Assembly (NCBI GenBank): GCA_001799635.1
Contig: MGTV01000025.1
Coordinates: 1 to 36,640, forward strand
Direction of reading: 5' to 3'
Length of the DNA: 36,640 bases
Source of the DNA: Elusimicrobia bacterium GWA2_62_23
GTDB taxonomy: Bacteria > Elusimicrobiota > Elusimicrobia > Elusimicrobiales > UBA9959
How positions within the stretch are numbered: position 1 is the stretch's first letter; each line of letters opens with the position of its first letter. The notes beneath the pieces were generated by a model, which saw nothing but the letters and a program-made list of their open reading frames with translations, was not told the DNA's origin and did not search any database. Both the position numbers and the translations under genes were made by a program. Positions 22,153-25,002 of this stretch are shown here, piece by piece.

Positions 22153-23517
22153 ATGAAACTTCCAACAGCGATATTGCTCGCCCTGTTCGCCACCCATCCC
22201 GCCTCGGCCGGAACGGCCCTGGATTCACTCTCCGTACTCGCTCCCGAAGCGCCTGCCGCGGCGCCGGCCCCCAAAGCCGAACTGAAAGAATGGACCGTCA
22301 TGGTCTACATGAACGGCAAGAGCAACATAGAACCTTTCGCCCTGACCGACCTGAACCGCTTCGAAACGGCCGGCTCCGGCCCCAACGTCAACATAGTGGC
22401 CGAGATCGGCCGCTCGAAGGGCCTGGACAACGACACCACGGCCGACGGCGACTGGGCCGGGGTGCGCCGCTACTTCGTCACGAAGGACGCCGACCCGGAC
22501 CATATCGCGTCCCCCCTGCTGGCCGACCTGGGCAGCCCCGACATGGGCGACTGGAAAGAGGCCGCGGCTTTCGTGAAGTGGGCCAAGGCCGCCTACCCGG
22601 CCAAGAAGTACGCTTTCGTGATCTGGGACCACGGCTGGGGCTGGCTGGACCCCGTGAAACCCGGGCAGAACCCGATGGACGACGAGAAGTCCATTTCCCA
22701 CGATTTCGTGACCGGCAACTACATCGGCACCCGCCAGATGGGGAAGATCTTCCGCGAGGCCGGCAAAGTGGACCTGTACGTTTCCATGGCCTGCTTCATG
22801 CAGATGGCCGAAGTGGCCTACGAGATCAAGGACGGCGCCGACGTGATAGTGGGCGCGGAAGAAGTGATACAGCTGCCCAGCCTGAACTGGGAGGGCTTCC
22901 TGGCCGCCCTCGCGGCCGACCCCGGCGCCTCTCCCGAGAAGGCCGGCGTCTACCTGGTGGACACTTTCAAGGAAATGTACTCCCGTCCCGAAATGCAGGA
23001 CCTGCTGCAGCAGGGCGGCTACGGCACGCAGCTCTCGGCCATCCGCGGCGCTAAGATGCGCGGCCTCGCCGCCAGGCTCAAGACCTGGTACCAGCTGGCC
23101 ATGGCCGCCGACGACAGGGCCGCGCTGGCCCGGGCCAAGGCCGAAGTGGTGCGCTTCGAGATCGGCGACCCCTCCACGGACCCCGACAAGCGGGTGGCGT
23201 TCTACGGCGACCTCTCCCATTTCGTGGAGCTGGCGGGCCGCTACGCGGACAAGGCCCGCCCCGGCGCCGGCAAAGCCGCCGCGGCCGGCCGCAGCCTTAA
23301 CCGCTTCATCGCCTCCGAACTGGTGATCCGCAACGCGGCGCTCGGGAAGGACCGCACCGGCAAGGATTTCTCCTCGGTAAAAGGCCTCGCCATCAACATC
23401 CCCGGCAAGCCCGGCACCCTGATAGAGTACTACCCCACCTACGACCGGCTCTTCTTCGCGCAGGACAGCGGCTGGGGAGAGTTCATGAAATACCTGGACG
23501 CCATAGAGAACAGGTGA
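22153..23517 (+). CDS. Exported clostripain-like cysteine protease (peptidase C11)
   Basis: The 454-residue protein has a signal peptide (about 1-19) and a C11 caspase-fold domain. It shows WTVMVYMNGKSNIEPF at its start, catalytic H160 in VIWDHGWGW and catalytic C214 in YVSMACFMQMAEVAYEI, followed by VIVGAEEV. C11 enzymes cut after Arg or Lys and often mature by self-cleavage; the cleavage site is not obvious here. It would act in the periplasm or outside the cell. It has its own promoter and leads a five-gene run. Its TGA overlaps the next gene's GTG start. What an exported protease has to do with the isoprenoid and nucleotide genes downstream is unclear. Confidence 0.9.
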   Translation: MKLPTAILLALFATHPASAGTALDSLSVLAPEAPAAAPAPKAELKEWTVMVYMNGKSNIEPFALTDLNRFETAGSGPNVNIVAEIGRSKGLDNDTTADGDWAGVRRYFVTKDADPDHIASPLLADLGSPDMGDWKEAAAFVKWAKAAYPAKKYAFVIWDHGWGWLDPVKPGQNPMDDEKSISHDFVTGNYIGTRQMGKIFREAGKVDLYVSMACFMQMAEVAYEIKDGADVIVGAEEVIQLPSLNWEGFLAALAADPGASPEKAGVYLVDTFKEMYSRPEMQDLLQQGGYGTQLSAIRGAKMRGLAARLKTWYQLAMAADDRAALARAKAEVVRFEIGDPSTDPDKRVAFYGDLSHFVELAGRYADKARPGAGKAAAAGRSLNRFIASELVIRNAALGKDRTGKDFSSVKGLAINIPGKPGTLIEYYPTYDRLFFAQDSGWGEFMKYLDAIENR

Positions 23518-24452
23518 CCATAGACGGGGACGCTGATGACTATTTGACTATTTGGCAAAAACGCTTCCCCCCCCCGGTTTCATCCGCAGAACACCAAATG
23601 CCCAAGACATCTCCAAATAGTCAAATAGTCATCAGCGTCCCCGCCAACTCTTCGTTTGCGCCCGCTTTTTTCTTCCTCAAAAAAGACCAGCGCAGGGCGC
23701 TTTCAGCCTACTACGGCTACGCCCGCGCCGTGGACGACATCGCCGACGACCCGGGCCTGGCCGCGGCCGACAGGCTGGAGCGCCTGGCGGCCTGGCGCGC
23801 CTCGGTGGAAGTCCTGTTCTCCGGCGGAGAGCCGGGCGGGACGCTGGGGCGCGAACTGGCCTGGGCCGTAAAGGCCTTCCCGCTGCGCCGCGAACATTTC
23901 CTGCTGGTGCTCGACGGGGTTTCCGCTGACCTGGACAAGAAGAACTACGCCACCCGGGCCGAACTGGAACATTACATGTACCGCGTGGCCTCCGCGGTAG
24001 GCCTGGCCTGCCTGGCTATCTCCGGCTACGACGCCCCCGACGCCGGGCTCTTCGCGGAGAAGCTCGGCTACGCCGTGCAGCTGACCAATATCCTCAGGGA
24101 CGTGGCCGAAGACCACGCCGCCGGCCGCGTCTACCTGCCGGCCGAGGACCTGGCCAGGTTCGGGTGCCCGCCCGCCGCCCTCGGCGGTTCCAATTACTCC
24201 CCCGATTTTATAGAATTGATGAAATTCGAGGCGGCGAGGGCCCGCGCCCTTTACGCCGAGGCCCTGGCCCTGGCCGACCCCTCGCGCAAGCGCAGCCTCG
24301 CCGCGGCGCTGGTAATGGGCGGGGTGTACAGGGAACTGCTGGAGAAGCTGGAGCGCGGCGGTTTCCGCGTAAAAGAAGGCCGCGTGCGCCTGACCGCCCT
24401 GGAAAAATTCAAAGCGCTTTTAAAAGCCTGGAGAGACTATGTTAAAATCTGA
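23514..24452 (+). CDS. Phytoene/squalene synthase family protein (CrtB/HpnC/HpnD-like), N-terminus altered by an insertion
   Basis: The family joins two prenyl diphosphates head-to-head, giving phytoene, or presqualene/squalene for hopanoids. The fold shows [20 protein letters not shown], the first Asp-rich motif [20 protein letters not shown] and the second motif NILRDVAED with [10 protein letters not shown]. From GTG 23514 it is 312 residues. The first about 45 residues (before SSFAPAF) are almost entirely encoded by an inverted-repeat element (23525..23643). There is no other ATG/GTG/TTG just before the conserved part except ATG 23598 in the element's loop. GTG 23514 overlaps the upstream TGA, so coupled initiation is likely. 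The product (carotenoid or hopanoid) cannot be told, as no partner genes are near. Confidence 0.88.
23525..23643. mobile_element. Non-autonomous inverted-repeat (MITE/REP-like) element
   Basis: Two perfect 30-bp arms (23526..23555 and 23613..23642; 31 bp with the outer C/G pair) flank a 57-base spacer. Each arm starts GGGGACGCTGATG and holds a tandem 8-mer GACTATTTGACTATTT. The arms are AT-richer than surrounding DNA, and the spacer has a run of nine C. No transposase is encoded, and no clear target-site duplication is visible. The 117 bases between the G and C ends equal 39 codons and are open in the frame of the host gene. Similar GGGGACG-ended palindromes are, from memory, associated with RAYT-type transposases; that link is inference. 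Confidence 0.75.
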
Positions 24453-25002
24453 CGCCTGGATCCGCGAGAAGTGCCGCAAGGAAAAGATGATCGCCCCCTT
24501 CGTGGAGGGCCTGGTGGCCAGGGGCAAGGTCTCCTACGGCCTTTCCTCCTACGGCTACGACATCCGCGTCTCCGACGAGTACAAGGTGTTCACCGACGTG
24601 CACAACTGCGTGGTGGACCCCAAGAACTTCAACGACAAGTCCTTCGTGGACATCAAGGCCCCCTACTGCATCGTGCCGGCGCATTCCTTCGCCCTGGCCC
24701 GCTCGGTGGAATACTTCCGCATCCCGCGCGGCGTCATCGGGCTCTGCATAGGCAAGAGCACCTACGCCCGCTGCGGCATCGTGGTCAACATCACCCCCCT
24801 GGAACCGGAATGGGAAGGCCACCTGACGCTCGAGATCTCCAACACCACACCCCTGCCCGCCAAGATCTACTCCAACGAGGGCATAGCGCAGCTGGTCTTC
24901 CTCGGGGCGGAAGACGAGTGCGAAACCTCGTACAAGGACAGGAAGGGCAAGTACCAGGCCCAGCGCGGAGTCACGCTCCCCCGCATCTTGAAACCCCGGT
25001 GA
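24439..25002 (+). CDS. dcd: dCTP deaminase
   Basis: Dcd converts dCTP to dUTP, feeding dTMP synthesis; some homologues also hydrolyse dUTP. The 187-residue protein has [10 protein letters not shown] (39-46), the phosphate-binding GKSTYARCG (105-113), [11 protein letters not shown] with the conserved Glu before Gly, and [13 protein letters not shown]. The C-terminal tail [12 protein letters not shown] is the mobile lid that closes on the nucleotide. It overlaps the previous gene by 14 bases and the next by four (GTGA), in the middle of the C11-led run. Monofunctional and bifunctional forms cannot be separated by eye. Confidence 0.95.

Follow-up and report, generated by a model that had tools for sequence, protein, structure and literature searches.

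The locus described here raises the question of where translation of a conserved gene begins when a palindromic repeat occupies its start region, and whether any part of that repeat is read as protein. The window, by which we mean the whole stretch of DNA that was analysed (36,640 nucleotides; positions 1-36,640 of contig MGTV01000025.1, assembly GCA_001799635.1), comes from Elusimicrobia bacterium GWA2_62_23, designated G000 among the genus genomes compared below. Between a protease gene and a squalene/phytoene synthase family gene, an inverted-repeat listing of the window (minimum 16 nt, partners within 300 nt) places two arms of 31 nt (23525-23555 and 23613-23643) that are 100% complementary and separated by a 57-nt spacer, and this is the sole fully complementary pair among the 20 inverted repeats listed. 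A preliminary description of the locus had correctly reported perfect arms around a 57-base spacer and had put the arm length at 30 rather than 31. The features of the junction, from left to right, are as follows.

22153-23517, plus strand: upstream C11 (clostripain-family) protease gene (Pfam PF03415, E 2.2e-30), ending with the stop codon TGA at 23515-23517
23514-23516, plus strand: GTG overlapping the C11 stop, proposed as the synthase start in the preliminary description; not conserved as a start
23520-23522, plus strand: ATA, candidate decayed relic of the original ATG (window TGACCATAGAC, compared with TAAGCATGGCAC in the sister genome G025 and TAAACCATGGCGC in G005)
23525-23555, plus strand: left arm of the dimer, with the core GGGGACGCTGATGACTATTTGACTATTT at 23526-23553
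23556-23612, plus strand: spacer (loop) of 57 nt, holding a C9 tract at 23567-23575
23598-23600, plus strand: ATG in the loop, the most likely start codon; ATG or GTG is found at the matching place in all five carriers of the element
23613-23643, plus strand: right arm, an exact inverted copy of the left arm, read as ...NSQIVISVP in the synthase frame
23598-24452, plus strand: squalene/phytoene synthase family gene (HpnD-like; Pfam PF00494, E 2.4e-68), 284 aa from ATG 23598
24439-25002, plus strand: downstream dCTP deaminase-like gene (Pfam PF22769) that overlaps the end of the synthase gene and is the basis of the neighbour tree

From the outer GGGG (23526) to the outer CCCC (23642) the element measures 117 bases, or 39 codons, with zero stops in the synthase frame, exactly as the preliminary description had stated, and the overlap of GTG 23514 with the upstream stop is likewise real. 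Its statement that ATG 23598 is the only other start needs amending, given that an in-frame TTG is also present at 23544. Neither the repeat nor its fold is expected by chance: a 23-base half-site pattern, allowing up to three mismatches, matches twice in the window and never in 100 dinucleotide-preserving shuffles, and the RNA of the element region folds at -61.6 kcal/mol (z = -7.75), a value that 0 of 200 shuffles equalled. Slippage in the C9 tract would toggle the GTG 23514 frame on and off and leave the ATG 23598 frame unaffected.

The palindrome belongs to a dispersed multicopy repeat family. A search of its own genome (2.98 Mb, 51 contigs) with the element gave 60 matches at E ≤ 10, mainly half-sites of ~28 nt that are counted on both strands. 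The window plus 15 fetched stretches of this genome hold 26 half-sites, a count from which the weakest own-genome matches are left out, and these sort into nine short dimers, one pair lying 3 kb apart around a transposase, and six halves that are lone at the threshold used, some of which have weaker partners. All 26 carry the outer end GGGGACG; by eye, their flanks and spacers are unrelated, and the repeats themselves vary in subtype (GCTGATGACTATATGAC, GTTGTTGACTATTTGAC, and others). Among the other genomes of the genus, 20 of 31 match the element at E < 1e-3; at the looser limit of E ≤ 1 the search gave 79 of 101, with many matches at chance level. Close pairs in the scanned loci (<200 nt, at most two mismatches) are inverted with GGGG outward in 21 of 21 cases and span 73-146 nt in total. 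Of 72 half-sites, 68% have A immediately ahead of GGGG and 49% have T at -2, a hint of a TA target. The earlier suggestion of a mobile-type multicopy element is thus supported by matches in the genome of origin and in 20 of its 31 relatives, and the opposite outcome named with it, a single-copy sequence lacking related repeats, does not apply to a repeat that is dispersed in its own genome and across the genus.

The preliminary description had also proposed a search for a RAYT/IS200-like transposase, and an IS200/RAYT-type gene was indeed found between the same repeats. Matches to Y1_Tnp (PF01797) occur in 35 of 61 genomes searched, with five in the genome of the window. Over 45 scanned loci, 24 transposase ORFs passed a filter, and seven have half-sites on both sides (L119, L257, L258, L260, L263, L264, and L266), one has a half-site on one side (L259), and 16 have none. 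The fraction 7 of 24 should not be read as a rate, because four of the flanked genes (contig C15 of G000, and those of G005, G014, and G009) were picked for repeats already seen nearby. In all seven, one half-site lies upstream and an inverted half-site overlaps the 3' end of the gene or falls within 32 nt of it; their open frames are 334-383 aa. Of the five Y1_Tnp genes in the genome of the window, that on C15 (L119) is flanked, that at L247 is unflanked, and the three others fall outside the filtered set. The L119 ORF that was scored (331 aa) reaches 31.1 bits with Pfam Y1_Tnp, above the cut-off, and 60.4 bits with NCBIfam REP_Tyr_transpos, below the cut-off of 80. Its C-terminus (L119:3828-4823), DSQIVNNVP, is its own right repeat in translation. 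The corresponding ORFs of L258 (G005), L260 (G014), and L263 (G009) terminate inside the repeat in a different frame, with ...KIVI as their last residues. Within the 3-kb unit, the interval that separates the left repeat from the RAYT gene contains an ORF at L119:2743-3309 (MRLYAAIDLHSNNSVLVILDEEDR) that is apparently a piece of another transposase, which we take to be IS110-like. Genome G025 has the repeats and no Y1_Tnp match.

Orthologs of the synthase were found in 23 of the 32 genus genomes, including that of the window. HpnD (presqualene diphosphate synthase) is the best-scoring named family for the product, with 258 bits against TIGR03465, below the cut-off of 278.6. Five of the 23 orthologs (G000, G009, G014, G024, and G028), from five species, carry an element at a shared position, the junction of C11 stop and synthase core, and in each of them its CCCC end lies exactly 6 nt before the SSF codons. 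All 18 non-carriers are free of the element and read (E/A)AGS(S/T)F where the carriers read two other codons followed by SSF. The outcome that was said to speak against an insertion, element-free relatives with the same N-terminal residues, was therefore not encountered. The QSSF that adjoins the core in four carriers is no mark of the element, because it is also present in the element-free locus L141 of a more distant relative. Across a second collection of 80 named loci, in which up to 300 nt upstream were examined (a few loci being shorter), the element is confined to L133, L134, L136, and L137, which are the same four relatives (Elusimicrobia GWC2_64_44, STC_50, GWD2_63_28, and GWB2_63_16). 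The gene is under purifying selection in pairs that include at least one carrier, with dN/dS values of 0.10 (G014/G005), 0.17 (G024/G028), 0.28 (G009/G028), and 0.24 (G000/G025). One non-carrier, G015 (L056), has ACGGGGACGGCG in the 35-nt spacer between C11 stop and synthase ATG, which is possibly a remnant repeat end, or else a coincidence.

To locate the start of translation, we compared the reading frames of the five carriers. In the four carriers other than the window, the synthase frame is closed by a stop 10-69 nt past the C11 stop and ahead of the loop start, and a single ATG, GTG, or TTG stands between this stop and the synthase core, always in the loop. Because upstream frames are cut off in these four and the only standard start is in the loop, the right arm, about nine codons long, is probably translated in the window as well, from ATG 23598. 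GTG 23514 and TTG 23544 are also open to the synthase in the window; the position common to all carriers is ATG 23598. The start codon precedes the right end of the element by 45, 36, 36, 45, and 36 nt and follows the C11 stop by 80, 76, 80, 72, and 75 nt in G000, G009, G014, G024, and G028, respectively. Translated in the synthase frame, the right arm gives NSQIVISVP for the window and, for the other carriers, NSHIVISVP, NSHIVINVP, NSQQLNNVP, and NPQIVINVP. A start at ATG 23598 yields a protein of ordinary length, since position 4 of the HpnD profile aligns with residue 15 counted from that codon. The next in-frame start in the window, GTG 23730, is codon 45 and lies beside a DD motif that is presumably catalytic. 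In every one of the five carriers the sequence ahead of the loop start lacks, by eye, anything resembling a Shine-Dalgarno site.

The proposal that the element serves as the N-terminus of the synthase thus survives in part: the right arm is probably translated, and the reading of all 39 codons from GTG 23514 is opposed by the in-frame stop in four of five carriers. The accompanying idea that the insertion kept translational coupling is doubtful, because 14 of 18 non-carriers have only 1-35 nt from the C11 stop to the start nearest the core (the distance in G023 was read by eye), compared with 72-80 nt in the five carriers. In two of the remaining non-carriers, G013 and G004, a GTG overlaps the C11 stop; the other two, G011 (L060) and G002 (L075), have no ATG, GTG, or TTG between the in-frame stop and the core. 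In G011 and G002, a G-rich, ribosome-site-like stretch is followed by ATT just before the synthase core, and this arrangement suggests a rare AUU start for these two genes.

Our preferred reading, which we consider likely from sequence comparison, is that the element inserted over the start of the synthase gene, such that the loop ATG at 23598 now acts as the start codon and the right arm contributes about nine translated N-terminal residues. The element would be a non-autonomous, REP-like dimer composed of two inverted 28-base transposase-associated repeats (approximately GGGGACGYTGWTGACTATWTGACTATTT) around a spacer, and it was probably spread by IS200/RAYT-type tyrosine transposases acting in trans, a number of which are encoded by genes that these repeats flank. 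Insertion just behind the C11 stop would have displaced the original start of the synthase along with the conserved 'PYEAG' residues. The gene would owe its survival to the spacer, which supplies ATG 23598 in frame with the right arm. Initiation would then take place at this ATG, the extra N-terminal residues would be harmless, and the 31-bp RNA hairpin would be mostly a by-product.

Two other placements of the start have to be weighed against initiation in the loop. Translation from GTG 23514 through all 39 codons of the element would exploit a frame that is open across the whole element in the window, a GTG/TGA overlap of the kind seen in coupled genes, and the frame that also holds the candidate start relic ATA 23520. 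We regard this as very unlikely because four of the five carriers interrupt the frame with a stop 10-69 nt behind the C11 stop, and G028, which does have GTGA at its C11 stop, has that GTG outside the synthase frame, where it soon meets a stop. Moreover, the GTG 23514 frame crosses the C9 tract at 23567-23575 and therefore hangs on the exact assembled length of a homopolymer. The other placement makes the element nothing but a leader, with a rare start codon (ATA or ATC) in or just 3' of the right arm and with few or no element residues in the protein. Such a start may exist in the carriers: the lack of a standard start in G011 and G002 implies that rare starts may be used in this gene, and REPs that appear in N-terminal coding regions may mostly be extragenic sequences drawn in by misannotation, according to the available part of one survey (Di Nocera et al. 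2013, PMC3733652). However, the presumed ATT of G011 and G002 has a G-rich, ribosome-site-like stretch before it and, by eye, the ATA and ATC codons of the carriers have none nearby, and in none of the five carriers has the loop lost its standard start or the right arm its open frame. A leader with a rare start is therefore distinctly unlikely in our judgement.

In a further alternative, the RNA hairpin would have been selected for a regulatory function, presenting the loop start either as a translational switch, which the preliminary description had raised, or as a standby site. Its very stable fold agrees with such a role, as does the start codon, which five of five carriers place in the loop at a distance of 72-80 nt from the C11 stop, and the arms retain 31, 28, and 27 pairs in G000, G009, and G024 despite their differing sequences. 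A mobile element of this kind brings well-paired arms anyway, however, and G014 and G028 have eroded to 21 and 20 pairs, respectively, with mismatches (arm ends for all pair counts were set by the analyst). Because the arms of these two carriers have eroded while frame and start were kept, the comparison argues that coding, not pairing, has been maintained. Single arms of the five carriers fold at only 0 to -2.3 kcal/mol. No Rfam family reached its gathering score in 23000-24500, no promoter was found in 23350-23750, and within the same interval no intrinsic terminator lies inside the element, the one terminator-like site being on the minus strand and outside it. With pairing eroded in two carriers and no Rfam match, the switch is left unsupported, and we consider a selected regulatory hairpin highly improbable.

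If the element inserted over the start and the loop ATG took its place, the history of this junction must still account for the scattered distribution of the carriers. In the synthase tree, G000 groups with the element-free G025 (100/99) and G014 with the element-free G005 (100/99), and G009, G024, and G028 form a group (97/95). The C11 tree again joins G014 with G005 and places G000 with G025 and G030; G009 goes with G005/G014 (91/91), not with G024/G028. A single insertion inherited vertically was rejected, with one carrier clade giving p-AU values of 4.9e-5 (synthase), 1.1e-5 (C11), and 0.0035 (tree of the downstream dcd neighbour). As for species-tree markers, rpoB was found in only 14 of the 32 genus genomes. 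The long valS matches are of two score classes, ~980 and ~600 bits, that occur in different genomes of the genus, as if two kinds of valyl-tRNA synthetase were present.

The loops are related in G014 and G028, where 6 of 500 shuffles were as good. For the other nine of ten loop pairs, 73 to 482 of 500 shuffles reached the observed score, and these include G024/G028 and all four pairs that involve the window; G024 and G028 are sisters (dS 0.31), and yet their loops are indistinguishable from shuffles. G014 and G028 also agree, by eye, in their arm variants, GACCATT on the left and ATCAACGTC on the right, although the gene body of G014 is sister to that of the element-free G005. Purely independent insertions are consequently not favoured for this pair, as their loops are related and their arm variants shared. 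Because the carriers do not form one clade, and because even sister species have dissimilar loops and arm subtypes, the junction saw more than one event; the element may have moved by recombination, been replaced by another, or inserted repeatedly. Sliding identities along the locus gave no clear breakpoint. The left flank of the window is at most suggestive of an old ATG that has decayed to ATA, in a stretch too short for a test.

An extension of the loop-start reading, which we put forward as speculative and rather unlikely, is that the junction is a re-usable 'start cassette', a single gene start that, in this genus, dimers with different subtypes and unrelated loops have repeatedly captured or exchanged. 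Each loop would then provide an in-frame ATG or GTG 36 or 45 nt before the right end, and a mobile palindrome would constitute a recurrent, replaceable translation-initiation module of a metabolic gene. The patchy distribution, with sisters that have and lack the element and sisters that have different elements, makes the exchange of such gene starts a testable question.

Among described systems, the element most closely resembles a TIR dimer of the TIRYT kind. TIRtrons and TIRYTs have a RAYT-like tyrosine transposase between terminal inverted repeats, many of which also occur as dispersed dimers; the repeats may overlap the end of the transposase gene, and GGGGWSAS is common to some TIRs only and is not strictly defining (Di Nocera et al. 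2013, PMC3733652, in its available part). Seven of the transposase ORFs here are likewise flanked by inverted repeats of one kind, the dispersed dimers are inverted in 21 of 21 close pairs, and their GGGG ends recall those of some TIRs, but the end GGGGACGY agrees with GGGGWSAS at seven of eight positions, with G in place of A, and so departs from that motif. In REP/REPIN/RAYT systems, as described there, short repeats similarly pair up in inverted orientation, with mostly 20-100 bp between them, and are accompanied by a RAYT-type transposase (PMC3733652); the present element has both an inverted pair with a spacer and a transposase of that type. It differs from GTAG-type REPs in that there is no GTAG tag (26 of 26 half-sites start with GGGGACG) and in that a single unit has next to no hairpin (best -2.3 kcal/mol). 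CGTC-type REPs have a CGTC tag beside an 8-9-bp stem with a 4-5-nt loop and are not associated with a transposase (PMC3733652, same portion); here, CGTC occurs within CGTCCCC, but no stem-loop of that size is present and the repeats do have an associated transposase.

Translated palindromic repeats are already known from Rickettsia, where palindromic elements (RPEs) of ~105-150 bp are mobile and lie in frame within functional genes (PMC2229807 and PMC10969869, each in its available part). In the present case, reading frame, orthologs, and dN/dS would fit the in-frame translation of a palindromic repeat in a functional gene. RPEs, though, are in-frame insertions within ORFs, in contrast to the Elusimicrobia element, which appears to replace the start region and to supply the start codon. 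Compared with known TIR dimers, it would be a variant from which a conserved gene of several species draws its start codon and N-terminus, and we make no claim that such variants are absent from print. REPs at gene starts were suggested to be mostly misannotated 5' regions, at least in the accessible text of PMC3733652; with five orthologs carrying the element and 18 free of it, this locus is most simply read as a case in which a RAYT-type repeat is translated, and the element would have taken over the start of a gene under purifying selection. The portion of PMC3733652 available to us makes no mention of Elusimicrob-, a literature search for Elusimicrobia with 'REP-associated tyrosine transposase' returned no paper, and one for Elusimicrobi- with 'miniature inverted-repeat' returned only a general IS survey.

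We also scanned 142 site keys in loci L001-L051 and L106-L120 for translated repeats elsewhere, judging them by eye rather than with a gene caller, and within this set accepted only those in the synthase gene (L001 and L032). Other long open frames over repeats look like spurious GC-rich ORFs or belong to genes with a normal start just 3' of the repeat. An ORF in L110 has a repeat-like N-terminus and no Pfam or NCBIfam match. Finally, in L022 (G000, C37:67100) and L040 (G006, C151), from two species, a repeat lies directly upstream of a gene starting MKIRNFCIIAHIDHGKST or MNIRNFSIIAHIDHGKST, respectively, which we take to be lepA, and these two loci possibly represent a second shared repeat position.
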